NCBI RefSeq assembly: GCF_000382265.1 | Contig: NZ_KB907975.1 | Coordinates: 186,001 to 250,000 of the forward strand | Reading direction: 5' to 3' | DNA: 64,000 nucleotides | DNA from: Yoonia vestfoldensis DSM 16212 | Lineage (GTDB): Bacteria; Pseudomonadota; Alphaproteobacteria; Rhodobacterales; Rhodobacteraceae | Shown here: positions 569 to 45,548 of the stretch, one piece after another | Numbering within the stretch: the first letter of the stretch is position 1 | How the letters are laid out: every line of letters starts with the position of its first letter | Translations under genes and position numbers: made by a program | Notes under the pieces: generated by a model | What the model saw: only the letters and a program-made list of their open reading frames with translations | The model's database searches: none | Told to the model about the DNA's origin: nothing

Positions 569-1058
569 CAGCACAGGTCGGCACTGCCGCCAAGTCCACA
601 GCCTGCGTGACAAACCCATGACCCATCACGCGGTGACGCTCCTCAAGCGGCCGAGTTCGGACGATCTTCACACCGGTGCTGCCGCGCGGCATCAGCGCGT
701 GGCAACTCTATCCGCAAAGATAATCGGGTCCCGCATGATCAAATCCGATTTTATCGGGAACAACCTTGGCAGATCGGTGTTGACACACTGAAGACCGGCA
801 CAGTCCCCGTCCGGTCCTTCTCGGTGACACATCCCTGCTTCCAGTCACCGGCAATACGCGGCGGCGTCGCCTGACCCCGCTCCCGTCCTCGTGACGCCGC
901 CGTCCCTCATCCCGAAAAAAATCGCGAAGACGGTCGTCAAACCGCCGGTCACGTTTCAGGCCGCCCTGTGACGATGAACGGCAGATGTTTTCGAGCGGAT
1001 CATTGTGCCGCAACCATCCTCCGGCCAAGGCTGGTTGCGGTTCCGTGCGCGCGGGCCG
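569..1058. other. 490-bp stretch without a convincing gene
   Basis: Open frames here have no ribosome site and look like chance frames. The only structured signal is an EcfG-type promoter match at 757-781 on the plus strand, followed by a short GACCGG/CCGGTC hairpin at about 792-817. A small RNA is possible but not shown. Confidence 0.4.
757..781 (+). promoter_or_regulatory. EcfG-type (general stress) promoter candidate, orphan
   Basis: GGAAC at 757-761, a 16-bp spacer, then TGTT at 778-781, close to the alphaproteobacterial EcfG consensus GGAAC-N16/17-CGTT. Predicted transcription would begin near 788 and run into sequence with no recognised gene. Confidence 0.4.
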
Positions 1059-1226
1059 TCAGTGATGATCGGGCGCGTCCTTTGCCAAGGTCGATTTGTT
1101 TTCGTCCTTGTGGGCTTCAGGATCGTGCAAACGGTCCTCGGTCTTCTTTTTGCTGACCATTGCCGCGATGATGACGGCGGCAAAGGTAAAAATCGACAGA
1201 GCCGCAAGAAAATATCCGGGTTCCAT
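1059..1226 (-). CDS. 55-residue single-span membrane protein
   Basis: This small gene runs from an ATG at 1226 to a TGA at 1059-1061. A strong AAAGGAGAC ribosome site (plus-strand 1231-1239) lies five bases upstream. The product begins MEPGYFLAALSIF, has one hydrophobic span at about residues 5-23, then KKK and a very hydrophilic, Asp/Glu/Lys/His-rich tail ending APDHH. That suggests an inner-membrane anchor with a cytoplasmic tail. An EcfG-type promoter sits at 1261-1285 on the same strand, leaving a leader of about 28 bases. I do not recognise the family. The ribosome site, promoter and membrane pattern together make it a likely real gene despite its size. Confidence 0.65.
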   Translation of the reverse strand: MEPGYFLAALSIFTFAAVIIAAMVSKKKTEDRLHDPEAHKDENKSTLAKDAPDHH

Positions 1227-1260
1227 GATGGTCTCCTTTTCGGTTCGGGTTCAGGAAATC

Positions 1261-1285
1261 AACAAGCGTCCCCAGCAAAGGTTCC
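1261..1285 (-). promoter_or_regulatory. EcfG-type promoter for the 55-residue membrane protein
   Basis: On the minus strand the site reads GGAAC, a 16-bp spacer and TGTT. The predicted start near 1254 lies about 28 bases before the ATG at 1226. It is back to back with the plus-strand candidate at 1314-1338. Confidence 0.55.
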
Positions 1286-1313
1286 GTCGCTGCAACCGCG
1301 ACATTCTGACAGC

Positions 1314-1338
1314 GGAACAATTGCCCGCGCGGGTGGTT
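1314..1338 (+). promoter_or_regulatory. EcfG-type promoter for the 95-residue protein
   Basis: GGAAC at 1314-1318, a 16-bp spacer and GGTT at 1335-1338. The first base of the -10 element differs from the CGTT consensus. The predicted start near 1345 lies about 48 bases before the ATG at 1393. Confidence 0.5.
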
Positions 1339-1392
1339 TTGCCTTCACAGGCACCCCGCCTTCACCGCGAACCACACAAACAGGAGAGACGC

Positions 1393-1680
1393 ATGAGCCA
1401 TTCAGAAGACAATATGGACCGCCAGGTCAAACGCCACAAAGGCCCGCTGGTCGGGTTCATCGCGATCATCGCCTTCGTTGCGGTTCTTCTCGTCTGGTGG
1501 TTAGGCGGCGAGGTGGAACAGGCACAAGACACGACTGCGCCAGGCGACGGCACAGCAACATCGGCGCCGGTGACTGGTCCGACGACGGACACGGCCGATG
1601 ACGGCGTGGCGACCGTGCCCGCGCAGAACCCCGCTGCGGAAAGCGCCGATGAACCGACCGCACCAGTCGTCGCAGATTGA
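1393..1680 (+). CDS. 95-residue membrane-anchored protein with acidic Thr/Ala/Pro-rich tail
   Basis: The ATG at 1393 is chosen because it follows an AGGAGAG ribosome site (1382-1388) at normal spacing; earlier in-frame starts would run through the promoter candidate. The first 18 residues are hydrophilic and basic (RQVKRHKGP), a single membrane span follows at about residues 19-40 ending VWWLGGEV, and the rest is low-complexity and rich in Thr, Ala, Pro, Asp and Glu. The topology suggests a cytoplasmic N-terminus and a disordered periplasmic tail. I do not recognise a family. The EcfG-type promoter upstream and the divergent 55-residue membrane protein suggest a stress-related envelope function. 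Confidence 0.7.
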   Translation: MSHSEDNMDRQVKRHKGPLVGFIAIIAFVAVLLVWWLGGEVEQAQDTTAPGDGTATSAPVTGPTTDTADDGVATVPAQNPAAESADEPTAPVVAD

Positions 1681-1865
1681 TGCAGGCCCCTGCCGGGACG
1701 GTCGCCGGATCGCCCGGTCGCTATTGGATGAGCGGCCATGATCTCTGCCAGCGCGCGGGCTGCTGGTTCACATTCACCTAGGTCCGTTGCGGGGATGACC
1801 CGCCGCTGTCGCGACAGTTCGGCACCATGTCGCCACGCCACAATCGGTTCCTTAGGGTCAGACAG

Positions 1866-1890
1866 GGAACATCCCCCTGCCCCCGTCGTT
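1866..1890 (+). promoter_or_regulatory. EcfG-type promoter, perfect consensus
   Basis: GGAAC at 1866-1870, a 16-bp spacer, then CGTT at 1887-1890. It lies inside the 398-bp gap 1681-2078, upstream of the PNPOx-like gene. The predicted leader of about 180 bases is long, so a second promoter or a leader element is possible. I saw nothing else in this gap. Confidence 0.6.
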
Positions 1891-2078
1891 GATGATCCAA
1901 GGACCGCAGCGACGGGATGGATGCAATGCCCTGCCGGCCAAGGATACTTGTGCCGCGCATGGGCCGCCCGCCGATGACGAAGGGCGTGCCAACCACGGTG
2001 CCGACCGGCACCCATGGCCCGGACCGTCGCTGCGGTGACCCTTGATAACAACCCAACGCAAGTCCAAGGAGGACGAAG

Positions 2079-2576
2079 ATGACAGATATCGACCGCGCAC
2101 GCACCGATCCCAAGGGAACAATCTGGAAAGAACTCGCGGCAGTTGAGGCCGGGATGCTGGGGATCACAGGCACCGGCCAGCACATGCAGCCGATGTCGCA
2201 TCATGTCGACGAAAAGGGCGGACAGCTGTGGTTTCTGACGACCCGCGACACCGATCTGGCCAAGGCGTTGCAGCCCGGCAGTGCGGCTCATTTCGTGATC
2301 ATATCCGACACCCATGATTTTTACGCCTGGATGACCGGCCCCATCGCGGAACAACAGAACAAGGACATCCTTGATACGCTTTGGACGAACACGGTCGCGG
2401 AGCTGTTCGTCGACGGCAAGGATGATCCGGCACTGATGCTGATCGCCCTCAAGCTGGAGGATGCTGCTCTCTGGTCGCTGCCCAAAGGCGGGTCGCATCA
2501 CGGTTGGCATGTGCCCGACAACAAAGACCGCGATCCGGCATCGCTTGGCGTTCGCAACCATGTGTCGTTCGGCTGA
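2079..2576 (+). CDS. Pyridoxamine 5'-phosphate oxidase-like protein (general stress protein 26 type)
   Basis: This 165-residue protein belongs to the PNPOx-like split-barrel flavin-binding family often called general stress protein 26. Members bind FMN or F420 and are mostly of unknown substrate. Typical segments are visible: a start-proximal helix (about 10-25), a QLWFLTTRDTDLAK strand-helix segment near residue 49, and an AWMTGPIA strand in the middle. A strong AAGGAGG ribosome site lies at 2067-2073 before the ATG at 2079. A perfect EcfG-type promoter is found upstream at 1866-1890. The gene is convergent with an SDR gene, with a hairpin between them. The true PdxH enzyme is longer and has different active-site motifs, so pyridoxal-phosphate synthesis is unlikely. 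Confidence 0.85.
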   Translation: MTDIDRARTDPKGTIWKELAAVEAGMLGITGTGQHMQPMSHHVDEKGGQLWFLTTRDTDLAKALQPGSAAHFVIISDTHDFYAWMTGPIAEQQNKDILDTLWTNTVAELFVDGKDDPALMLIALKLEDAALWSLPKGGSHHGWHVPDNKDRDPASLGVRNHVSFG

Positions 2577-2598
2577 CTTGCGCTGACACGATGGACAT

Positions 2599-2632
2599 GA
2601 CAGGGCCCGCGGCACAATCTGCGGGGCCTGTC
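2599..2632. terminator. Hairpin between convergent genes
   Basis: A 12-bp stem with one mismatch (arms 2599-2610 and 2621-2632, GACAGG... and ...CCTGTC) sits between two convergent genes. No T-run follows on the plus strand, so it may act as a shared weak terminator or 3' stabiliser. Confidence 0.45.
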
Positions 2633-2655
2633 GCGTGATGGCCGCTGATCAGCGG

Positions 2656-3594
2656 TCAGGTCATCGCGTTGCCGCAGGTGACCGCAATCGTCGCGCCAGA
2701 CACAGAGCGCGACATCGGGTCCGCCAGCATCACATAGGCCGATGCCAGTTCAACGGGCGGCGCGGGTCGCCTCATAGGATGACCGTCACCGCGTGCCGAC
2801 GCAGGCTCGCCGGCCGCACTGCCGGGGACCAGCGGGGGCCAGACCGGACCGGGGGCGACGCAATTCACCCGGATCGCCTTTTCCGAGAGGATGTGCGCAA
2901 GACTGCTGGTGAAACCCTGAATCGCGCCCTGCGCCGTCGCCGCGGCCAAAAGCGCCCCGCCGGACTCACCGGCAGTGATCGCGGCAGTGTTGATGATCGA
3001 TGCGCCTTCTTTCATATGCGGCACCGCAGCCTTGCACAGAGAGAACGTGCCATGGATCCTGAACGCAAAGGTCCGTTGCCATTCCTTGTCTGCGATACCG
3101 TCGAGATCATCGAAACGGTGCTGATGCGTGGCGTTGTTCACCAGAATGTCGATCCGACCGAATTCCTCGACCACGGCGGCGACGATGGCACGGCAATGCG
3201 CCGGATCAGAAATGTCGCCAGGCAGCAAAAGACACTGGCGGCCGGTATCGAGGATCAGGCGTTCGGTGTCCGTGGCGTCCCCGGTGTCGTTCAGATAGCT
3301 GATCGCGACATCAGCGCCTTCGCGGGCATAGGCGATGGCGACGGCGCGTCCGATGCCGCTGTCGCCGCCAGTGATCAGCGCGACGCGCCGTCGCAGCCGA
3401 CCCGTCCCTTTCCAGGGCATATCCTCGGTCTGTGCGGAATAGGGCGGGCGCGGATCGGATTGGGCGCTGTTCCCATCGTCCGGCCAGGCCTGCTGGTACT
3501 TGTCGATCACGTGTGGGTCGTTGCGGTGCAGGTTCTGGCTTTTCGTCATAGCATCGGCGCGCGGCGCGTCGGGGTTCACGGGGCGGGAGGACAT
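2656..3594 (-). CDS. SDR-family protein (YghA/GSP39 type) lacking the catalytic tetrad
   Basis: This 312-residue protein has the layout of the YghA/YdaD ('general stress protein 39') branch of short-chain dehydrogenases, with a 60-residue N-terminal extension before the Rossmann fold. The start at 3594 follows a GAAAGGAAG ribosome site. The dinucleotide motif ITGGDSGIGRA (about 74-84) and the NNA motif (about 153-155) are intact. All four catalytic positions differ from the family pattern: Asn to Arg179, Ser to Ala205, Tyr to Ala218 and Lys to Gln222, by eye alignment with the remembered E. coli YghA sequence. Normal oxidoreductase chemistry is therefore doubtful; a binding or regulatory role is possible. 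An EcfG-type promoter lies at 3631-3656, about 30 bases ahead. Confidence 0.85.
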   Translation of the reverse strand: MSSRPVNPDAPRADAMTKSQNLHRNDPHVIDKYQQAWPDDGNSAQSDPRPPYSAQTEDMPWKGTGRLRRRVALITGGDSGIGRAVAIAYAREGADVAISYLNDTGDATDTERLILDTGRQCLLLPGDISDPAHCRAIVAAVVEEFGRIDILVNNATHQHRFDDLDGIADKEWQRTFAFRIHGTFSLCKAAVPHMKEGASIINTAAITAGESGGALLAAATAQGAIQGFTSSLAHILSEKAIRVNCVAPGPVWPPLVPGSAAGEPASARGDGHPMRRPAPPVELASAYVMLADPMSRSVSGATIAVTCGNAMT

Positions 3595-3630
3595 CAGGCG
3601 GCTTCCTTTCGCGATTGCTGCTGCGGTTAC

Positions 3631-3656
3631 AACACCTCTGGTTGCACTCTTGTTCC
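3631..3656 (-). promoter_or_regulatory. EcfG-type promoter for the SDR gene
   Basis: On the minus strand the site reads GGAAC, a 17-bp spacer and TGTT. The predicted start near 3624 leaves a leader of about 30 bases before the SDR ATG at 3594. Confidence 0.55.
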
Positions 3657-3700
3657 CGGCTTGTCGCAAATATTGCATCGCGCGGGGTGTCGCATTGACC

Positions 3701-3725
3701 GGAACCGTGGTCTGATTAAAGCGTT
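3701..3725 (+). promoter_or_regulatory. EcfG-type promoter for exoD, perfect consensus
   Basis: GGAAC at 3701-3705, a 16-bp spacer, then CGTT at 3722-3725. The predicted start near 3732 lies about 42 bases before the ATG at 3774, and it argues against the earlier in-frame ATG at 3729. Confidence 0.65.
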
Positions 3726-3773
3726 AACATGAAGCTGCGGCACCGGGCTTGCGCCAAACGGGACAGAACACTG

Positions 3774-4370
3774 ATGAAGGCAGATGATGTCCAAGAGGAC
3801 GATCACAAGCTCGGGCACCTTGTCGCGCGGATGCGCGATGCCGCCAAGCAAGACACGGTCGCCATCAAAGACGTGATGGCCGCCATCGGTGGGCGCGGCA
3901 TCATTCCGTTTTTGCTGGTGCCTGCATTGCTGACCATGTCACCCTTGTCGGGCATCCCCGGGTTCTCTGCGACAAGCGGTGTGATCATTGCGATCGTGTC
4001 GGTTTACATGCTGCTCAACCGCGACAGTATCAGCTTGCCCGACTGGATCGAGCGTCGGTCGGTCAGCGGACAGCGGCTCGACAAGGCGCTGGCGAAAATC
4101 GAACCCATGGTGAACTGGATCGACCGCCATACGCGGCGGCGGTGGCATTTGTTGTTCAACAGGCCGATCATCTGGGTGCCGCAGGGGCTGTGCCTTGCTT
4201 CTGGGCTGGTGATGCCGCTGCTGGAATTCATCCCGTTCACATCGTCGATCGTTGCTACGGGCGTCTTCTTGCTGGCGCTGTCGCTGTTGGTGCGGGATGG
4301 ACGCTTGTTCATCATCGCATTGCTGCCCTATGCCGCCGTGATCGCCATCGCCGTGTCACGCCTGATCTGA
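3774..4370 (+). CDS. exoD: Exopolysaccharide synthesis protein ExoD
   Basis: This 198-residue membrane protein matches the ExoD family. Rhizobial members affect exopolysaccharide production and alkaline tolerance; the mechanism is unknown. Family features include a hydrophilic N-terminus (about 1-40), a glycine-rich turn with GGRGIIPFLLVPAL near residue 50, and four or five hydrophobic segments up to the C-terminus. The ATG at 3774 is preferred over the one at 3729 because the EcfG-type promoter at 3701-3725 would begin transcription between them. The divergent neighbour is the SDR gene, whose own EcfG-type promoter lies back to back with this one. Control by the general stress response is inferred from the promoter only. 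Confidence 0.85.
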   Translation: MKADDVQEDDHKLGHLVARMRDAAKQDTVAIKDVMAAIGGRGIIPFLLVPALLTMSPLSGIPGFSATSGVIIAIVSVYMLLNRDSISLPDWIERRSVSGQRLDKALAKIEPMVNWIDRHTRRRWHLLFNRPIIWVPQGLCLASGLVMPLLEFIPFTSSIVATGVFLLALSLLVRDGRLFIIALLPYAAVIAIAVSRLI

Positions 4371-4499
4371 CGCGAGACCCAGACGGTTTGCCCAGCAACC
4401 AAGCGCGCACCGGGTGTTCCAAAATACGCACCCCACCACGGGTTGCGGGGTATCAATTGGGTCCGGCAAAGACTGCGCCCGTGCCGCCCGGGTCCGCCT

Positions 4500-4820
4500 T
4501 CAGCCGCAGTAGGTCGTCAGCACCGCAGGCAACATCGTCCAGACCGCTGCAATGACCCCGACCCATCCCGACGCGCGGCCAACGAAATTGACGAAAACCG
4601 AGGCGGATGAAAACCGGTCCTGATACAACGCCCACAGCAAGACGACCTGCACCAGGATTGCAAGGACATAGGCGGTGACCAGCAGCACACGCGCCAGCGA
4701 CAGGCCAAAGACCGTGCCGTCGACCGCGAAACCGCAGATGACCCCGTGCAGGCCATAGACGGCACTGAACGCGGCCAGCCAGACCAGCGGGGCGATCAGG
4801 ATGCGCACAAGGTCCTTCAT
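4500..4820 (-). CDS. Small membrane subunit of the heme-copper oxidase operon
   Basis: This 106-residue protein has three hydrophobic segments (about 7-30, 42-66 and 84-102). Its ATG overlaps the stop of the subunit I+III gene (ATGA, 4817-4820), which indicates translational coupling. Small three-span proteins at this position are usually subunit IV-like partners of heme-copper oxidases (CyoD or CtaF-like). I see no sequence motif that decides between those families. It is the last gene of the minus-strand oxidase operon. Nothing resembling a strong terminator was seen in the 130 bp after it. Confidence 0.7.
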   Translation of the reverse strand: MKDLVRILIAPLVWLAAFSAVYGLHGVICGFAVDGTVFGLSLARVLLVTAYVLAILVQVVLLWALYQDRFSSASVFVNFVGRASGWVGVIAAVWTMLPAVLTTYCG

Positions 4821-7300
4821 AGCGACAGTCCCGACAGGTGCCCGACCAGCAGGACCAGCGATCCGATGACGGCAACATAATCGCCCCACAGGCTGACCAC
4901 CGCGAATTCCGACCGGCGTGCGGGGGACGTGTAGCCTTGCCAGACCCGCGCGATCAGATGGCCGGTCATCAGCACGATCAGCACGGCATGGAACAGGCCA
5001 TAGCTGCCCAGCACGAACAATGTCGCGGCATAGGCGTGGTCCACGGGCGGCGGTGCGCGCCACAGCATGACGGCACAGCAGGCCCCGAACACCACCGCGC
5101 CGGTCAGTGCGATGCCCAGCGCAGGCAGGGTCGCGCGGGCGTTGCGCACCGCTGCCATCGCGACCCGCAGCGCAAGTGCTGTGCCCAGCGCCGCCGCGAC
5201 ACCAACGCCAAGTTCGATGAAGGACGGCTCGAACCGGACCAACGGCGGCCAGCCGGGGGCGACGGTCCATAGAAACGCGAAACCGAACAGCAGGCAGCCG
5301 AACAGGGTGGCATTGGCGAACATCAAGAACAGCGACCCCCACCAGCCCGGCGACCGGTCGGTGGCACTTGCATGCGGCAGGATAACCCCCTGCCCCACGT
5401 GCTGCGCGCCCAGATCATCCCTGCGCCCCAGCATCCAGACCCAGCGCAGCGCCAGACCCGCGACGCCGACCATCCCGATGGGAACCATCCAATAGGTTTT
5501 CAGCAAAAGCCCCAGAAAGAAAATGCCCGTCACCGCCGACATCAGGATCGGCAGGCGGGTATTGGCAGGATAGATCACATGCGCCTCGGGGCGGCCTGTG
5601 GCTGCATCGACCATCAGCGTCTCGCGCCAGTCCGCGCGGGGGGTGCCCAGATAGCCATGGCCTTGGGCCAGCCTGACGGGCAGCGCAGGGTTGTCGGCCA
5701 GCGGATGGCGGCTGTCGACATGCGGCAGGCTGGCAAAGTTATAGGACGGCGGCGGGGTCATCATCGCCCAGTCCAGCGTGCCCGCCTGCCAGGGGTTGCG
5801 CCTGATCTTGCGCGACGACAAGACATGCAGGATCACGTCCAGCAGGACCATCGCGATCCCGATGGACAGAACGAAACTGCCGACGGACGAAATCAGGTTG
5901 ATCAGGGTCCAGCCATCCTCGGGCGTGTAGGTGTCGATCCGGCGGCGCTGGCCCAGCAGGCCGACCCAATGCATCGCGAAAAACGTGACGTGAAAGCCCA
6001 CGAAGATGAGCCAGAACGCGAATTCGCCCAAGCGAAAGAACCGCTTGCGCCCCGAGACATGCGGCAGCCAGTAATAGATGCCCGCAAAGACCGGAAAGAC
6101 GAACCCGCCGAACAGCACGTAATGCAGATGGGCAGTGATAAAGGCCGTGTCATGGACCTGCCAGTTGAACGGCACCATCGCCACCATGACGCCGGTCAGG
6201 CCGCCGATCACGAAGGTCGCGAAAAACCCCATGATGTGCAGCATCGGCAAATGCAGTTCCGGCCGCCCTTTCCACATCGTGCCAATCCACGCAAAAAGCT
6301 GCACCGCCGTCGGCACCGCGACCAGCGTGGACGCTGCCGAAAAGAACGCCAGCCCCATATGCGGGATGCCGGTCGTGAACATGTGATGCACCCAGAGCCC
6401 GAAGGACAGGAAGGCAAGCGCGACAATCGCCGCCACGATCCAGCCATAGCCGATCAGCGTTGTGCGGCACATCACCGGCAGGACGGTGGACACGATGCCA
6501 GCGGCGGGCAGAAAGATGATATAGACCTCCGGATGCCCGAACAGCCAGAACAGGTGCTGCCACAGCAGGCTGTCACCGCCCAGTTCGACCTGAAAGAACG
6601 GAAAGCCGAAAGCGCGTTCGACCTCCAGCAGGATCGAGCCAAGGATCAGCGGCGGAAACCCCGTCAGGATCATCAGCGCCGTGACCAGCGCATACCACGC
6701 AAAGATCGGCATTTTCGCCAGCGTCATGCCGGGCGCGCGGAATTTCAGGATCGACACGCAAATCTCGGCCGCCGCCGCGATGGCCGAAATCTCGACAAAG
6801 GTGATCCCGATCAGCCAGAAATCGGTGTTGATCCCCGGCGAATAGATCGCATTGGACAGGGGCGTGTACATGAACCAGCCGCTGTCAGGCGCGATCCCCA
6901 GCAGCATCGCCACCAGCAGCATCGACCCGCCGAACACGTAACACCAATAGCCGTAGGCCGTCAGGCGCGGAAAGGCGAGATCGCGGGTGCCAAGGATCTT
7001 GGGCAAAAGATAGATCGCCAGCCCCTCGAACGCGGGGATCGCGAAGAGGAACATCATGATGGTCCCGTGCATCGTGAAGATCTGGTTATAGATATCCGGC
7101 CCCGCAAAGGCCGAATCCGGCGTCGCGAGCTGCGCGCGGATCAGCATCGCAAGGATGCCGCCGATAATGAAAAAGAAGAACGAGGTGACAAGGAACATCC
7201 GCCCCAGATCGGTGTGGTTCACGGTGGAAAACCAGCCCCGGAAACCCCGCTCTGACGCCCAGATTGCATCGAGCCTGCGATGGCGTGTGACGACGTTCAC
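4817..7300 (-). CDS. Heme-copper oxidase subunit I+III fusion (CtaD-CtaE type)
   Basis: This 827-residue protein fuses subunit I (about 1-560) with subunit III (about 640-827). Subunit I carries the low-spin heme His in TMHGTIMMF (His78), the CuB/Tyr motif FGHPEVYII of A-type oxidases, the CuB pair in WVHHMF, and the heme-ligand pair in TAHLHYVL. Subunit III shows the expected hydrophobic helices, ending GHLSGLSL. The start is a GTG at 7300, overlapping the subunit II stop, behind an AGGAGA site; upstream in-frame codons belong to subunit II. It reduces O2 to water in the inner membrane. The electron donor is uncertain because subunit II lacks CuA. Of the E. coli CyoB quinone-site residues, only the Gln (NQIFTMHG) is clearly retained. 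Confidence 0.93.
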   Translation of the reverse strand: MNVVTRHRRLDAIWASERGFRGWFSTVNHTDLGRMFLVTSFFFFIIGGILAMLIRAQLATPDSAFAGPDIYNQIFTMHGTIMMFLFAIPAFEGLAIYLLPKILGTRDLAFPRLTAYGYWCYVFGGSMLLVAMLLGIAPDSGWFMYTPLSNAIYSPGINTDFWLIGITFVEISAIAAAAEICVSILKFRAPGMTLAKMPIFAWYALVTALMILTGFPPLILGSILLEVERAFGFPFFQVELGGDSLLWQHLFWLFGHPEVYIIFLPAAGIVSTVLPVMCRTTLIGYGWIVAAIVALAFLSFGLWVHHMFTTGIPHMGLAFFSAASTLVAVPTAVQLFAWIGTMWKGRPELHLPMLHIMGFFATFVIGGLTGVMVAMVPFNWQVHDTAFITAHLHYVLFGGFVFPVFAGIYYWLPHVSGRKRFFRLGEFAFWLIFVGFHVTFFAMHWVGLLGQRRRIDTYTPEDGWTLINLISSVGSFVLSIGIAMVLLDVILHVLSSRKIRRNPWQAGTLDWAMMTPPPSYNFASLPHVDSRHPLADNPALPVRLAQGHGYLGTPRADWRETLMVDAATGRPEAHVIYPANTRLPILMSAVTGIFFLGLLLKTYWMVPIGMVGVAGLALRWVWMLGRRDDLGAQHVGQGVILPHASATDRSPGWWGSLFLMFANATLFGCLLFGFAFLWTVAPGWPPLVRFEPSFIELGVGVAAALGTALALRVAMAAVRNARATLPALGIALTGAVVFGACCAVMLWRAPPPVDHAYAATLFVLGSYGLFHAVLIVLMTGHLIARVWQGYTSPARRSEFAVVSLWGDYVAVIGSLVLLVGHLSGLSL

Positions 7301-7983
7301 TCGGTCTCTCCTGCAATAAAATCGGCCCATCCGGCCGCGTCATGGGCCCTGACGGTGAACCCGAAATCGGCATAGTTTTCGCCGCTGAATTCCGCGCTCA
7401 GCCCCTGATAATCGCCCGGCGCATCCGCCTCGATCCGCAGCACGTTGGAACGGCCGGGAATGGCGTCGAGCTTGCCCGCCAAGCGCGGGACCCAGAAACT
7501 GTGGATCACATCGGCTGTGGTGATGGAAACGTCCACAGGTTGGCCTGCGGGAATGTGCAGGATATCCTCGGTCACGCGGCCTGGCGCATCGGCATAGCTG
7601 AAGGTCCAGACCCAGCGCTGGCCCTGCGCACTGACCTGCACAACAGTGACGTCGTCGCGCGGCAACAGCCGCTCGCCGATGACCAGCCCGAAACCTAGCA
7701 GAACCGCCAGCACGACCATCGGGAAAGCAAGGCCAAGAGCGATGATCCAGACCCGCACCTGCCCGCGCTCGTCAGCGGCCACGTCCGGACTGCGCCGCAC
7801 GAAAGCCAGCACCACCAAGGCCATGACCAGCATGAAAATTAGGACCGCCCCGACCAGCATCGCCCACCACAGATCGGCGATCACACGGGCGGCGGGACCG
7901 GCTGTTTGCAGCGTCGATGTCGCACCATCGCAACCATTCAGCGCCAAAAGCGTTGTGGCAAGGATCACCCCCCGAGGAGCCAA
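7297..7983 (-). CDS. Heme-copper oxidase subunit II without CuA ligands (lipoprotein)
   Basis: With a TTG start at 7983 this is a 228-residue lipoprotein (lipobox LNGC, Cys18) with two membrane spans (about 36-62 and 78-102) and a periplasmic cupredoxin domain. The domain keeps the HSFWVP motif (His161), but the CuA loop reads LSAEFSGENYADF. The two Cys are Ser196 and Ser200, the His is Tyr204 and the Met is Phe207. The same loss defines CyoA of bo3 quinol oxidases, so electrons probably do not enter through CuA from cytochrome c; quinol is the natural alternative. The start is uncertain (a GTG at 7968 is possible). Its 5' end lies head to head with DUF2231. Its stop overlaps the start of subunit I+III. 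Confidence 0.88.
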   Translation of the reverse strand: MAPRGVILATTLLALNGCDGATSTLQTAGPAARVIADLWWAMLVGAVLIFMLVMALVVLAFVRRSPDVAADERGQVRVWIIALGLAFPMVVLAVLLGFGLVIGERLLPRDDVTVVQVSAQGQRWVWTFSYADAPGRVTEDILHIPAGQPVDVSITTADVIHSFWVPRLAGKLDAIPGRSNVLRIEADAPGDYQGLSAEFSGENYADFGFTVRAHDAAGWADFIAGETE

Positions 7984-7989
7984 TGACCC

Positions 7990-8508
7990 ATGCCTGAAGA
8001 CAAAGTCGAAACCGAAGCGGACGAATTGATCGACCCGATCGGCGCATTGCCGGATTTCAACAAGACGGAATCGCGGATCGCGCTTGCAGGCCACCCGATC
8101 CACGCGATGAGCGTTGCCTTTCCCGTCGCGCTGACCTTCTGCACTTTCGGCGCGGATGTGTTCTATTGGCTGACGGGCGATATCTTCTGGGCGCGAGCCG
8201 CGGTCTGGGCGGCGGGCACTGGGTTTTTGCTGGGCATGGTCGCGGGCATCTCGGGGACAGCCGAATTGCTGCTCGTTTCGGGCATCCGCGCCCGCGCACC
8301 CGCGTGGACGCATTTCATCATCGCGGTCACGCTGCTGGCCGCACTGGGGGCGAATTGGGGTCACCGGCTGTCTGGCTACGAGACGGCCGTGCTGCCCTAC
8401 GGCATCCTGCTGTCGGGGCTGTGCGTGCTGATGGTGATGTTCACAGGTTGGCATGGCGGCAAGCTCGTCTTTGACTATCAACTGGGCACATCGAAGGGGA
8501 AATCGTAG
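7990..8508 (+). CDS. DUF2231 family membrane protein
   Basis: This 172-residue protein carries the DUF2231 signature AGHPIHAMSVAFPVAL (about residue 32) and four predicted membrane spans. Family members often occur beside oxidases and are thought to bind heme or act in redox processes, but this is not established. The ATG at 7990 is preceded by GAGGAG at 7973-7978, which lies inside the coding start of the divergent subunit II gene. The promoters of the two genes must therefore lie within or across each other's 5' ends. Its 3' end overlaps the convergent CopD/HemJ-like gene by 31 bp. Confidence 0.85.
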   Translation: MPEDKVETEADELIDPIGALPDFNKTESRIALAGHPIHAMSVAFPVALTFCTFGADVFYWLTGDIFWARAAVWAAGTGFLLGMVAGISGTAELLLVSGIRARAPAWTHFIIAVTLLAALGANWGHRLSGYETAVLPYGILLSGLCVLMVMFTGWHGGKLVFDYQLGTSKGKS

Positions 8509-8987
8509 CCGCGCGGCTCAAGCAGCCAGTCCGGCATCACAAGCCAGTCCGCCGCAGGCTTGGCCAGCACCAGACACAGGATCGCAATGACCGCCAGCAG
8601 CACACCCCCTGTCGGGATCACCGGGGATGGTGGCGTGTGTTCGGTCGGCTCCTCGGCGGTCAGCACAAGGATGTGCCCGATCCACGCGTGCAAGGCGACC
8701 AGTATGGCGACAAAGACCATCTTGGCGTAAAACCACGGCACGAAAACCTCGCGCAGAAAGATCAGCCAGGTCCCCGCGATCACCGCGACAACCGCCGCAG
8801 GTGTCACGCAAAGCGTATAGGTGATGTGCGCCGCGCGCCGTATATGGATGTAATCATCGACGCCAATCGCCGGTTCATGCCGCGCCAGCATCACCGGCAG
8901 GATCAGCAGGCCGCTGCACCAGATCAGCAGTGCCGCGATATGGACCGACTTGAAAATCGGGACCAGCGTCATGAGCCACTCTACCAC
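8478..8987 (-). CDS. CopD/HemJ-like four-span membrane protein
   Basis: This 169-residue protein has four hydrophobic segments. Conserved histidines appear near the first (KSVHIAALLIWCSGLLILP) and third (KMVFVAILVALHAWIGHIL) spans, the layout of the CopD/HemJ superfamily (copper-resistance or protoporphyrinogen-oxidase-like proteins). Position in an operon with ctaG next to an oxidase suggests a part in heme or copper supply to that enzyme, by inference. A GTG start at 8987 overlaps the ctaG stop by seven bases; an ATG at 8972 is an alternative. The 3' end overlaps DUF2231 on the other strand. Confidence 0.7.
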   Translation of the reverse strand: MVEWLMTLVPIFKSVHIAALLIWCSGLLILPVMLARHEPAIGVDDYIHIRRAAHITYTLCVTPAAVVAVIAGTWLIFLREVFVPWFYAKMVFVAILVALHAWIGHILVLTAEEPTEHTPPSPVIPTGGVLLAVIAILCLVLAKPAADWLVMPDWLLEPRGYDFPFDVPS

Positions 8988-9682
8988 GACAGATCACCCC
9001 GCAGCCGTGTCCAGCTTTGGCGCGCCATGACAACGGCCGCCACCGCATAGGGCAGGCCCGCAGGCACCCACATGATCAGCCCGCCCAGTTGCTGGTCGCG
9101 CAGCGGGCTCATGCCCCAGTCGAACGGGGCAACAGCATGGACATCGTAAAGCGCCGAGGGTGCAAAGGTCAGGATCGCGCCCAACAGCCCCATCTGGCCA
9201 AAGTTGGCGATGATATAGACCAGTTGCAGCACCGGCGCGCCGTCGCGGGCGAACACCACCCGCCAAAACCAGACAGCACTTGCCAGCAGCGAAATCTGCA
9301 TCACCCAATAGACCGCGACATGCGACAGCGCCGCGTCATAGGCCGCAGGCAGGTGCCAGCCCCAGAGCACCGCCGTCGCAACACCAAACGACAACCCCGG
9401 ACCGGACCGGAACCTGCCGCGAAAGACCCAGCCCAGCAGGGGGGCGGCCACCGCGACCAGCAACACATGATGCACGACCCGCGCCGAAAACAATGCGGCA
9501 GACAGCGCGCAGAGCGGCGAGACAAAGGCCACAACCAGCACGAAAACCGCCGCAATCCCCGCAGGATTGCGCCGCAACAGCCAGGCCATCACGGCCAAAG
9601 CCACCAGCAGCGGCGGATCAAAGTTCCAGCTTGTCCATAGCTGATCGGGAAGCGGCGGCGGGCCGCAATAAATCCTGTCCAT
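8981..9682 (-). CDS. ctaG: Cytochrome oxidase assembly factor, caa3_CtaG type
   Basis: This 233-residue polytopic protein matches the caa3_CtaG family (about seven spans), which is needed for assembly of some terminal oxidases and is distinct from the Cox11-type CtaG copper chaperone. Family-like features are VVHHVLLVAVAAPLL, a WGWHLPAAYD segment and a C-terminal LGGLIMWVPAGLPY motif. The ATG at 9682 follows GAGAGG at a normal distance. A perfect EcfG-type promoter at 9738-9762 precedes it with a leader of about 49 bases, so ctaG and the overlapping CopD/HemJ-like gene probably form a stress-induced operon. Confidence 0.87.
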   Translation of the reverse strand: MDRIYCGPPPLPDQLWTSWNFDPPLLVALAVMAWLLRRNPAGIAAVFVLVVAFVSPLCALSAALFSARVVHHVLLVAVAAPLLGWVFRGRFRSGPGLSFGVATAVLWGWHLPAAYDAALSHVAVYWVMQISLLASAVWFWRVVFARDGAPVLQLVYIIANFGQMGLLGAILTFAPSALYDVHAVAPFDWGMSPLRDQQLGGLIMWVPAGLPYAVAAVVMARQSWTRLRGDLSW

Positions 9683-9737
9683 GGAAAAGCCTCTCGTCTG
9701 CGGTGCAGGGCTGTTCTTCAAGCCCCTTGCGACTTTG

Positions 9738-9762
9738 AACGCCCCGGTCAGGTGATTGTTCC
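9738..9762 (-). promoter_or_regulatory. EcfG-type promoter for ctaG, perfect consensus
   Basis: On the minus strand the site reads GGAAC, a 16-bp spacer and CGTT. The predicted start near 9731 lies about 49 bases before the ctaG ATG. The 9683-9919 gap holds nothing else that I recognise. Confidence 0.65.
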
Positions 9763-9919
9763 ACGCGCGTTCAGCAACCACGCGGCGCAGGCGGCGTTGT
9801 TGCCGCGTCCGCGACATGAAGTCCTTGATGACCCAGCAGGCCGTCGGTGGCCCGAATGTCGTCGCGCAAGACGTGGACCAGACCGTCAGTGAAGCCGCCA
9901 CAGCTGGGGCGCGCTTTTC

Positions 9920-10423
9920 CTAGTTCTGCAAATCATCGCTCTGGCCGGTCCCGCGTGGGACGCGCGGCGCAACGATTGGCATCACCGCAAGGATAACCAG
10001 AACGACCGCTGTCGACAGGATCGCCGTCGCCTCGAGGCCCAGCCCGCAGATAATGCCGATACCAGCGGTCGCCCAGATGCTTGCCGCCGTCGTCAGCCCC
10101 TCGACCTGATGGCGCGACGACCGCACGATGATGGCGCCCGCGCCCAGAAAACCGATGCCCTGAACGATGCCTTGCAGGACGCGTGACATGTCCTCGATCG
10201 GCATGCCGGCCTGCATCGGGCCGATGACGAACAGCGTCGCACCCACCGCGACGAGCATATGCGTCCGCACGCCCGCGCTGCGCGCCTTGCGCTCACGCTC
10301 ATAGCCCAGAATGCCGCCGAGGATCGCGGCAAGCAAAAGGCGCAGAGTGATGATGGTGATCGTGGCGACATCCGGCAGGTCAGAAAATTCGCCGATGATG
10401 GCCGTCCAGATTTCGTGCAGCAT
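9920..10423 (-). CDS. MgtC/SapB family inner-membrane protein
   Basis: This 167-residue protein has the MgtC/SapB N-terminal domain. It shows four or five spans, the LGYERERKARSAGVRTHMLV segment near residue 40, and GIGFLGAGAII near residue 88. MgtC proteins help survival in low magnesium or inside hosts, and some restrain the F-type ATP synthase; the long C-terminal ACT-like domain of Salmonella MgtC is absent. An EcfG-type promoter match at 10464-10488 leaves a leader of about 34 bases, which would place it in the general stress response rather than under Mg2+ control. That assignment is inferred. Confidence 0.9.
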   Translation of the reverse strand: MLHEIWTAIIGEFSDLPDVATITIITLRLLLAAILGGILGYERERKARSAGVRTHMLVAVGATLFVIGPMQAGMPIEDMSRVLQGIVQGIGFLGAGAIIVRSSRHQVEGLTTAASIWATAGIGIICGLGLEATAILSTAVVLVILAVMPIVAPRVPRGTGQSDDLQN

Positions 10424-10463
10424 TCTTCTGTCTCATTGATTTTTGCCAAGGTGGCCTCGATCT

Positions 10464-10488
10464 AACCCGACACAGGCGTTCGGGTTCC
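10464..10488 (-). promoter_or_regulatory. EcfG-type promoter for mgtC-like gene
   Basis: On the minus strand the site reads GGAAC, a 16-bp spacer and GGTT (one deviation from CGTT). The predicted start near 10457 lies about 34 bases before the ATG at 10423. Confidence 0.5.
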
Positions 10489-15003: not shown

Positions 15004-15744
15004 ATGGCGCAGCCTTGGGCATGGATCGGCGGCGCAACCTCGCTTGGGTTGATTGCAGCGGGTCTCTGGCTTGGTACGATCGAGCAAGAGACCCCGGCGA
15101 TCGGCCCTGCCGACGTGCCACCACCGACGGCGACACCCGCGCCCGCGCCGCCCGCCGCACCTGAACCCGCTGTTACGCCAGAGCCGGAACCTGTCGTCTC
15201 GGAACCGGCCCCGCCGCCTGTCGTGCCTTTGGCGGGCGGGGTCTGGCTTTATGCCCCGGATGCGGGTCTGTCCGCCGAGGGTGCCGAGGATGCGATGCGA
15301 CTGGTCGCGCAAGTCTCCTGGCAGGCGAAGCATTTTGGCGCGGTGGCCATCCCCCGCGCCTTTCCGGACTCTCAATATGTGATCGAAGGATACGGCGAAC
15401 TGGCGCAGGCCGAAAACCACGCGCTGAACATCTGTGCGCAAACGGAAAGAGATTGCATCATCCTTGCCTGGCTGGTCCCGCCAGATTGGGATGGCACCTT
15501 TGAAGGCACGCTGAACGCCCGCCAGAAAAGCCTGTTCCATGCGTTCACCGCTGACCGGACAGGCAGATTTCTGGCCTTTGCAAGCTCGCCCGAAGGCGCC
15601 GCAGGGCACGGCGCTGGCGCAAGTCCTGATGAGGCCGCAGAGGCCGCGATGCTGGCTTGCAGGCTGATGCAACACCGCCAGTGGCAGGGACATCCGCGCA
15701 GGCGTGGCTGCGCCGTTATGGCGACACGGCAGGTAGACCCCTAG
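15004..15744 (+). CDS. Secreted/anchored protein with two DUF4189-like repeats
   Basis: This 246-residue protein has an N-terminal hydrophobic segment (about 5-24) that acts as a signal or anchor, then a Pro/Ala/Glu linker (about 32-75), then two similar modules. The first includes AENHALNICAQTERDCIILA and the second AEAAMLACRL followed by GCAVMAT. Each has the Ala-rich helix, Cys and second Cys of DUF4189-type modules, so each probably forms one disulfide in the periplasm. The function is unknown. It follows flotillin by 9 bp and is probably in the same operon. The family assignment is by motif pattern only. Confidence 0.65.
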   Translation: MAQPWAWIGGATSLGLIAAGLWLGTIEQETPAIGPADVPPPTATPAPAPPAAPEPAVTPEPEPVVSEPAPPPVVPLAGGVWLYAPDAGLSAEGAEDAMRLVAQVSWQAKHFGAVAIPRAFPDSQYVIEGYGELAQAENHALNICAQTERDCIILAWLVPPDWDGTFEGTLNARQKSLFHAFTADRTGRFLAFASSPEGAAGHGAGASPDEAAEAAMLACRLMQHRQWQGHPRRRGCAVMATRQVDP

Positions 15745-44793: not shown

Positions 44794-45548
44794 TCGCCAG
44801 CCTGCCGATGTACCTGCGCCCTGCCAACATGGCGGCGCATCACGCCCTCTGGGCGCTGATCCGCGTTGGCCTGCGCGACCACGGCCTGCCTGCGCCTGAC
44901 GCCTTGGACGAGAACATCGATTTCGAGGCAAGCTGGGCGCATCCCGATCTGGTGCTGGGCCAGATCTGCAACCTGCCCTATCGTGCGCAGTTCCGCGACC
45001 ATGTGACACCGATTGCCGCAATGGATTACGGCCTGCCCGGCTGCACGCCGGGGTATTACAATTCGGTTTTCATCGTGCATCGGGACAGCGCCATATCGGA
45101 CCTGCGCCATCTGCGCGGTCGCCACATGGCCGCCAGCGCCCTTCTTTCGCAATCGGGCTATGGAGCGGCGCAGCAATGGGCGGCGGATCAGGGGTTCCTG
45201 TTTGCCGCCCCGCTGGTCACCGGCAGCCATGCCGCCAGCATCAAGGCTGTGGCGACGGGTGCTGCCGATTTCGCGGCCATCGACGCGCAGACATGGTGGA
45301 TGGCCCAGCAGGACGATCCGCTGACGGGACAGGTCAAGGTCATCGGCACCACGCCCGCCAGCCCCTGCATGACGCTGATCACCCGTGCGGGGCAGGATGC
45401 CGCACCTTATCTGGCCGCGATCACCGCCGCTGTCGCGTCCCTGCCCGAAAGTCACCGCCAGACACTTGGCCTGCGCGGCGTCATGCCGCTTTCGCCGGAT
45501 GCCTATGATATCCCCCTGCCGCCCGAACCCGAGGCGGTTTTGGCCTGA
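44790..45548 (+). CDS. PhnD/SsuA-like solute-binding-fold protein without signal peptide
   Basis: This 252-residue protein matches the phosphate/phosphonate-binding-like family (PhnD type). The opening is IASLPMYLRPANMAAHHALW, the middle holds GYYNSVFIVHRDSAISDLRHL, and there is a hinge-like SGSHAASIKAVATGAADFAAID region. It has no N-terminal signal peptide or lipobox, which is unusual for a transport binding protein and suggests a cytoplasmic role or a sensor domain. The ATG at 44790 overlaps the TerB stop by four bases. An ABC transporter operon begins 84 bp later but belongs to a different class. Confidence 0.78.
   Translation: MIASLPMYLRPANMAAHHALWALIRVGLRDHGLPAPDALDENIDFEASWAHPDLVLGQICNLPYRAQFRDHVTPIAAMDYGLPGCTPGYYNSVFIVHRDSAISDLRHLRGRHMAASALLSQSGYGAAQQWAADQGFLFAAPLVTGSHAASIKAVATGAADFAAIDAQTWWMAQQDDPLTGQVKVIGTTPASPCMTLITRAGQDAAPYLAAITAAVASLPESHRQTLGLRGVMPLSPDAYDIPLPPEPEAVLA

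Follow-up and report, generated by a model that had tools for sequence, protein, structure and literature searches.

We analysed a window of 64,000 nucleotides from the alphaproteobacterium Yoonia vestfoldensis DSM 16212 (contig NZ_KB907975.1, positions 186,001 to 250,000), whose first 10.5 kb had been predicted to hold a cluster of eight promoters of the general stress sigma factor EcfG. This region is very probably a general-stress island, that is, a patchily distributed and frequently rearranged block of small stress genes, most of whose units would have an EcfG promoter of their own. The evidence comes from the positions, clustering and conservation of the promoter sites, from the regulators encoded in the same genome, and from a nucleotide constraint on one further site, which lies on the opposite strand within the codons of the cytochrome oxidase gene cox2.

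A motif scan with the pattern GGAAC-N16/17-NGTT recovered all eight predicted sites, at 757–781(+), 1261–1285(-), 1314–1338(+), 1866–1890(+), 3631–3656(-), 3701–3725(+), 9738–9762(-) and 10464–10488(-). Three of them (1866, 3701 and 9738) carry the perfect CGTT and the others TGTT or GGTT, and all eight are intergenic, as had been claimed. The sites were also said to lie mostly a short distance before a start codon, and this holds for most: seven precede a gene, with gaps of 34 bases for a gene of 55 codons, 54 for one of 95 codons, 39 for an SDR-family gene, 55 for ctaG and 40 for mgtC. However, site 757 has no evident gene, and the leader of the PNPOx-like gene is long (188 nucleotides). At exoD, the site ends 3 bases before the listed ATG (3729) and 48 bases before a second ATG at 3774.

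The whole window holds ten exact matches; the two additional ones, at 15514–15538(-) and 44970–44994(-), are within long open reading frames of the opposite strand. Dinucleotide shuffles of the window (n = 100) yield 2.84 matches per 64 kb, with a standard deviation of 1.67 and a largest count of 9; the corresponding figure of about 0.47 per 10.5 kb is close to the 0.6 first estimated. Three more exact sites are located to the left of the window, at positions 184889, 185414 and 185836 of the same contig (C3; window positions -1111, -586 and -164), which brings the extended cluster to 11 exact sites in 11.6 kb. Permitting one mismatch in GGAAC or CGTT between window positions -2500 and 11500 adds sites at -461, 2348, 7930 and 9774. 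Thus the cluster is real, but it is larger than originally described, comprising 11 exact sites and the embedded site at 7930 and reaching beyond the left end of the window.

The genome contains 162 matches in 3,718,921 bases (3.72 Mb), a density equal to that of the shuffled window. When 162 sites were scattered over the genome in 20,000 runs, the fullest 9.73-kb window never received more than seven sites, versus eight observed, and the fullest 11.6-kb window never more than eight, versus 11 observed. The original prediction had named equal density everywhere as the outcome of a genome-wide scan that would speak against it, and the observed clustering instead exceeds that of every random placement.

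The genome encodes the regulators that such sites would require. Contig C1 carries a single NepR (6.4e-15), with a PhyR near it (NF006623, 1.5e-105; PDB 9by5, 2.3e-102), an EcfG-type sigma factor beside nepR and phyR (PDB 5uxx, 4.2e-53) and a HisKA_2/HWE kinase at the same locus. Seven sites, including two that overlap each other on opposite strands, form a second cluster in which this locus sits. The neighbours of the C1 sites are phyR and nepR-ecfG, a DUF883/holin-like pair (the DUF883 match is slightly below cut-off), a PLD-like gene, and a gene for a small lipoprotein that, from its sequence type, we take to be entericidin-like. The motif is also present between phyR and nepR-ecfG. The published EcfG consensus is GGAAC-N16-CGTT (PMC3892343, PMC7083833). 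Within an EcfG regulon the -10 variants TGTT, GGTT and CATT and the -35 variant GCAAC are reported (PMC7083833), and some EcfG-dependent genes have GCAACC sites (PMC6599016). The sites in the island are therefore most likely EcfG promoters, as predicted: they match the consensus or its published variants, the cognate EcfG, NepR and PhyR are encoded in the genome, and the sites are conserved before orthologous genes.

Conservation is clearest within the genus. Among 56 genomes of the genus, including that of the window, an SDR match at 1e-40 is present in five and a CtaG match at 1e-20 in six. (The first 24 of these genomes, with two weak matches of 24% identity, had suggested that the island was unique to this genome, and the genus-wide searches overturned this.) Three relatives have dense islands, with 17 sites in 20 kb in locus L120 of genome G071 (one match to the reversed motif), 15 in 20 kb in L122 of G049 (two reversed) and 10 in 11.4 kb in L121 of G047 (two reversed). 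Locus L120 holds the genes of the window in a different order, with identities of 80% for ctaG, 90% for DUF2231, 92% for cox1, 76% for ExoD, 68% for both the SDR and the PNPOx-like protein, 62% for the 95-residue protein, 82% for the 55-residue protein and 74% for DUF1622; the mgtC of G071 is 77% identical. It additionally contains otsB/otsA, a DUF892 protein, a PRC-barrel protein and a second EcfG-like sigma factor. For nine of the 11 exact sites, G071 has a corresponding site in front of the same gene. In these nine promoter pairs, which were picked because both members carry a site, the core positions agree in 70 of 72 cases, versus 422 of 788 positions in the rest of the promoter regions. 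Both core mismatches come from ctaG, where the relative's spacer is one base longer.

Beyond the genus, the SDR and ctaG sites could be followed. An SDR match at 1e-80 is present in 11 of 394 family genomes, the present one among them, and a site is found upstream in 13 of 17 SDR relatives. For ctaG we used the best 80 of 384 stretches (the CtaG loci). The motif lies within 300 bases upstream in 22 of the 77 loci with enough flank, whereas shuffling gives a mean of 0.6 and a maximum of 3 (n = 200); over a slightly different stretch it is present in 23 of 80 loci, versus one of 80 for the reversed motif. By inspection, several further loci have a site in front of a longer gene that lies upstream of ctaG and runs in the same direction.

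In the general model of the PhyR-NepR-EcfG system, a kinase acts on PhyR, which acts on NepR, and EcfG is released (PMC5830050). Applied to this organism, stress would lead the HisKA_2/HWE kinase to phosphorylate PhyR, phosphorylated PhyR would take up NepR and free EcfG, and EcfG would turn on the units of the island, each from its own promoter. We infer EcfG dependence, co-regulation of the units and their physiological role. The PhyR of Rhodobacter sphaeroides is described as having a narrower role, in membrane stress (PMC5830050), which leaves it uncertain how large the response is in this order.

The island resembles the known alphaproteobacterial general stress response (PhyR-NepR-EcfG; SigT, RpoE2) in its regulators and in its GGAAC-N16/17-CGTT promoters with published variants. 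Targets of similar kind have been reported in Sphingomonas melonis, among them trehalose genes, a general stress protein 26 and a PRC-barrel protein (PMC6599016), and in Rhizobium etli, where they include a pyridoxine-phosphate oxidase (PMC3188799). In Sphingopyxis granuli, GGAAC and GCAAC are likewise the two most frequent -35 boxes of the regulon, accompanied by CGTT, TGTT, GGTT and CATT -10 elements (PMC7083833). In contrast to the known response, the targets here are grouped in a single island, most units of which are preceded by a site, one relative's island holds a second EcfG-like sigma factor, and an oxidase module is included. A search of the main text of the S. granuli study for cytochrome, CtaG and oxidase, which did not extend to promoters within coding sequence, gave no hit (PMC7083833).

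A heme-copper oxidase module is part of the island. On the minus strand it comprises ctaG (8981–9682; Caa3_CtaG, 1.2e-28), a gene for a HemJ/CopD-like membrane protein (8478–8987; the HemJ model scores far under its cut-off), cox2 (7297–7968), cox1 (4817–7300) and a gene for a small cox4-like subunit (4500–4820). On the plus strand, antisense between the hemJ-like gene and cox2, lies the gene for a DUF2231 membrane protein (7990–8508; 1.9e-35), which the 3' end of the hemJ-like gene overlaps. cox2 has a lipobox and a GTG start, and its CoxB match (9.9e-40, 136.2 bits) is below the cut-off of 147.7 bits. cox1 is long, with 827 residues from the listed start (CtaD, 7.4e-210), and would, from its length, be a fusion with a subunit III-like part. 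The cox4-like gene, which has no Pfam match, is present in 65 of the 80 CtaG loci under a filter of half coverage and enough flank.

This layout was surveyed in 87 loci, namely the 80 CtaG loci and seven more, of which 84 are distinct (L126 repeats L120, and L127 and L128 share the coordinates of L042 and L045). In all 87 (84 distinct), DUF2231 and the HemJ/CopD-like gene lie antisense to each other with a 3' overlap, usually of 30 nucleotides. cox2 could be located in 86 (83 distinct), always on the strand of the HemJ-like gene, and was not found in L122. The estimated starts of DUF2231 and cox2 are a median of 22 nucleotides apart (range 10 to 127; 22 in the window), so that most loci have no room for two ordinary divergent promoters. 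We found no GGAAC site for cox2-cox1-cox4 in the window, none within 120 nucleotides of cox2 in 80 loci and none before cox1 in 78. The module has the layout of a noncontiguous operon, in which an antisense gene stands between co-oriented genes and overlaps or nearly abuts both.

The site at 7930–7954(+) has the form GCAACC-N-CGTT, with a 16-base spacer after GCAAC, and lies in the signal-peptide and lipobox codons of cox2, 60 nucleotides before DUF2231. It looks like an EcfG-type promoter placed antisense within cox2. The element is found within 120 nucleotides upstream of DUF2231 in 62 of the 80 loci, 52 of which have GCAAC and CGTT, and at exactly -60 in 36 of the 62. Since the site overlaps the lipobox, whose Gly-Cys is encoded by GGTTGC, we recoded cox2 synonymously in 2,000 runs, redrawing codons according to their usage in cox1 and cox2 of the locus concerned. 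Over a slightly different stretch the motif occurs in 64 of 80 loci, versus a mean of 0.32 and a maximum of 3 after recoding. The third bases most distorted are at the motif itself: T before the lipobox Cys in 69 of 80 loci (expected 7.9) and A at codon -8 in 69 (expected 4.8). T is also overrepresented, though less strongly, at codons -13 to -11 (30, 24 and 26 loci, versus 7 to 9), -3 (27 versus 7.9) and -2 (21 versus 5.6). Because of such skew at other 5' codons, the recoding was repeated with the pooled usage of the cox2 5' region minus the motif codons, and 2,000 runs gave a mean of 0.87 and a maximum of 5. The site is thus under a nucleotide constraint beyond coding by either measure, and mere lipobox coding was rejected as its explanation.

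A wider form of that explanation is that the embedded element is a by-product of lipobox coding or of some other nucleotide constraint, such as RNA structure or the translation start of cox2 or DUF2231. Gene starts can carry translation constraints, and the third bases of several nearby cox2 codons are skewed as described. We nevertheless consider it unlikely, since after recoding only 0.3 (gene-body usage) or 0.9 (local usage) of 80 loci show the motif, and since the sequence varies between two separate blocks that are themselves fixed. Moreover, the motif is absent where DUF2231 is divergent from cox2 outside the Alphaproteobacteria. It is missing in two gammaproteobacterial loci and in all ten modules from other classes (loci recorded as the same phylum but a different class) in which cox2 is divergent within about 150 nucleotides of DUF2231; L163, where cox2 is farther away, also lacks it. 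The latter come from a phylum-wide sample in which DUF2231 was found in 32 of 398 genomes and 30 loci were fetched. Twelve alphaproteobacterial DUF2231 loci in this sample have no cox match in the fetched stretch, and six of them have a GGAAC-type site near the DUF2231 start, a count that has no reversed-motif control and draws on few genera (11 of the 12 loci stem from two). DUF2231 itself therefore looks like a general-stress target.

Several observations weigh against reading the embedded element as an EcfG promoter. Other third bases in the 5' part of cox2 are skewed two- to four-fold towards T or A relative to gene-body usage. The strict motif is lacking in 16 of the 80 loci, the two gammaproteobacterial ones and 14 of 78 alphaproteobacterial ones (64 carry it), three of the 14 having CATT. 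In the phylum-wide sample it is present in only three of six alphaproteobacterial modules besides our own (one GCAAC, two GGAAC), and these six overlap the first set, the upstream region of L144 being that of L091 and the 25-mer of L143 that of L065 and L087. L047 carries the motif with a single weak PhyR/EcfG-domain match (3.2e-12). The tests take no account of shared ancestry, and GCAAC as a -35 element is known from studies of sphingomonads, which belong to another order than the host. The presence of a general stress response was uninformative as a predictor of the motif, because each of the 48 alphaproteobacterial genomes that were tested contains one PhyR/EcfG-domain match or more. It does not explain the losses, as all 14 alphaproteobacterial loci without the motif have at least two such matches; outside the class, EcfG was sought in the genomes of the two gammaproteobacterial loci, of which L075 has one match (5.3e-14) and L109 none.

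If the embedded site is an EcfG promoter, EcfG would transcribe ctaG from site 9738 in the lineage of the window and DUF2231 from 7930, against the cox genes. We suggest, tentatively and as somewhat less than an even prospect, that a stress sigma factor controls the module as a conserved noncontiguous operon, in which the DUF2231 transcript, fired from the lipobox codons of cox2, would collide with the ctaG-hemJ-like-cox transcript and block or thin cox2-cox1, with EcfG raising ctaG in some lineages. A close parallel is the noncontiguous operon menE-menC-MW1733-ytkD-MW1731 of Staphylococcus aureus, where an opposing gene inside the operon likewise means that transcripts would overlap (PMC7154746). 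Overlapping transcription is reported in S. aureus (PMC7154746), whereas here it is predicted. The present case also differs in that the promoter of the inner gene looks like a stress-sigma type and lies in the codons of the next gene. Clusters of A1-type cytochrome c oxidase in alphaproteobacteria similarly have Caa3_CtaG near the oxidase genes (PMC6431628). Unlike in our loci, 'DUF' is absent from the main text of that study, in which we did not search for EcfG (PMC6431628). Among the literature matches listed (5 of 5, 30 of 175, 15 of 288 and 8 of 1,582), none is seen to link EcfG to ctaG or DUF2231, and those of the last two sets do not mention DUF2231.

With regard to the island as a whole, the sites could serve another extracytoplasmic function (ECF) sigma factor whose promoters share a similar AAC/GTT signature. 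The AAC triplet is a common -35 feature of ECF promoters (PMC7083833), and the second EcfG-like sigma factor in the G071 island, 51% identical to the EcfG of the window's genome, would be a candidate. It is encoded at L120 17935–18495(+) and has an EcfG site of its own. We regard this as quite improbable, given that the sites agree with published EcfG promoters in consensus, spacing and -10 variants (PMC6599016, PMC3892343, PMC7083833) and that the identical motif lies between phyR and nepR-ecfG; a second sigma factor of the EcfG group would, besides, still count as a general-stress sigma factor.

The conservation and number of sites also include points against an EcfG-controlled island. The motif is not in excess genome-wide, a possibility that we rejected: counts are at background, with 162 matches versus 344 for the backwards-read pattern, and the CGTT-only form is likewise not raised (55 versus 165). 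Support for the promoters is accordingly their clustering, position and conservation, not their number. Four of the 17 SDR relatives have no site in the stretch examined: L117 reaches the contig end, the site of L139 overlaps an aligned start that is itself unsure, and L132 and L136 have none. No GGAAC site lies within 300 nucleotides of ctaG in 55 of 77 loci. Some relatives are sparser, with four sites in 6.6 kb in L124 of G020 (one reversed), and five in L123 and four in L125 per 20 kb (none reversed), both from G039, a member of another family. We found no L120 counterparts of sites 757 and -1111 (C3:184889), nor the gene that follows the latter. That the eight sites are chance or compositional artefacts picked by eye, as a short and relaxed pattern at background rate might suggest, is refuted for the cluster by clustering beyond 20,000 random placements and by cores conserved in rearranged islands, and we give it a negligible probability.

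Site 757–781(+), with its TGTT -10 element, may be either a chance match or the promoter of a small RNA. The small RNA was not retained as a candidate, its one support being the stable fold of the RNA at 788–960 (z = -3.8); a search of Rfam gave no match, and blastn yielded for the site an 18-nucleotide match (E 0.87) to the islands of three relatives. The neighbouring divergent pair consists of the 55-residue membrane protein (1059–1226(-)), with a putative EcfG promoter at 1261–1285(-), and the 95-residue membrane protein (1393–1680(+)), with one at 1314–1338(+). Neither protein has a Pfam match, and both promoters have G071 counterparts with identical cores (8/8). The PNPOx-like protein (2079–2576(+); Pyrid_ox_like, 3.6e-28) would be transcribed from 1866–1890(+), which has a similar G071 counterpart (core 8/8), and its orthologues adjoin the SDR gene in G071, G047 and G049.

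The SDR-family protein (2656–3591(-)), whose putative promoter at 3631–3656(-) has a counterpart in G071, had been called non-catalytic. This copy indeed lacks the YxxxK dyad, but all 17 relatives keep the Tyr. The dyad region reads AAATAQ here and resembles AYATTK elsewhere, with Lys in 15 of the 17 relatives and Arg in two. The loss looks peculiar to this genome.

ExoD (7.2e-43) probably starts at 3774 and extends to 4370(+); we moved its start from 3729 because the putative promoter at 3701–3725(+), conserved in G071 (core 8/8), ends 3 nucleotides before it. The MgtC-family protein (9920–10423(-); 1.8e-37) is preceded by a putative EcfG promoter at 10464–10488(-), with a G071 counterpart in L126 (core 8/8). 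To the left of the window, only 8 nucleotides separate the DUF1622 site from the first ATG in both genomes (C3:185836–185860 and L120 19228–19252(-)); this would fit an mRNA without a leader, or translation that begins at a later codon. A TGAAC variant with CGTT at -461 to -437(+) lies a few tens of bases before an orphan open reading frame of 76 codons, 83% conserved in L120, and is possibly a further promoter.

Some sites were seen in the wider surroundings of ctaG. In L071, L090, L096, L097 and L101, EcfG sites lie about 2.4–2.6 kb upstream of ctaG, before a recurring protein of 770–778 residues with YxNATGGWGSLKGV near its start. In L042, L045 and L056, GGAACCTTCC-type sites with CGTT precede a gene of 749–750 codons whose product, judging by its sequence, is presumably acyl-CoA dehydrogenase-like; a similar site occurs at C7:161832 in the present genome. 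Several loci (L071, L073, L079, L091, L092, L105, L108 and L112) have sites on the minus strand some 2.5 kb downstream from where ctaG starts; these were set aside by inspection, because most have near-identical spacers that look like conserved coding sequence.

General-stress regulons are usually presented as lists of single genes, whereas the targets here are clustered in an island that differs among close relatives, so that blocks of the response itself may be exchanged between them. The embedded promoter would link stress control with respiration, on which the arrangement suggests that the general stress response acts directly, and a promoter may in this way dictate codons and residues of its host gene. 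DUF2231, for which Pfam names no function, becomes a candidate general-stress protein. If transcripts do collide in the oxidase module, this collision would be the means by which the general stress response switches a terminal oxidase, and the codons of cox2, even residues of its signal peptide, would have been shaped by an opposing promoter.

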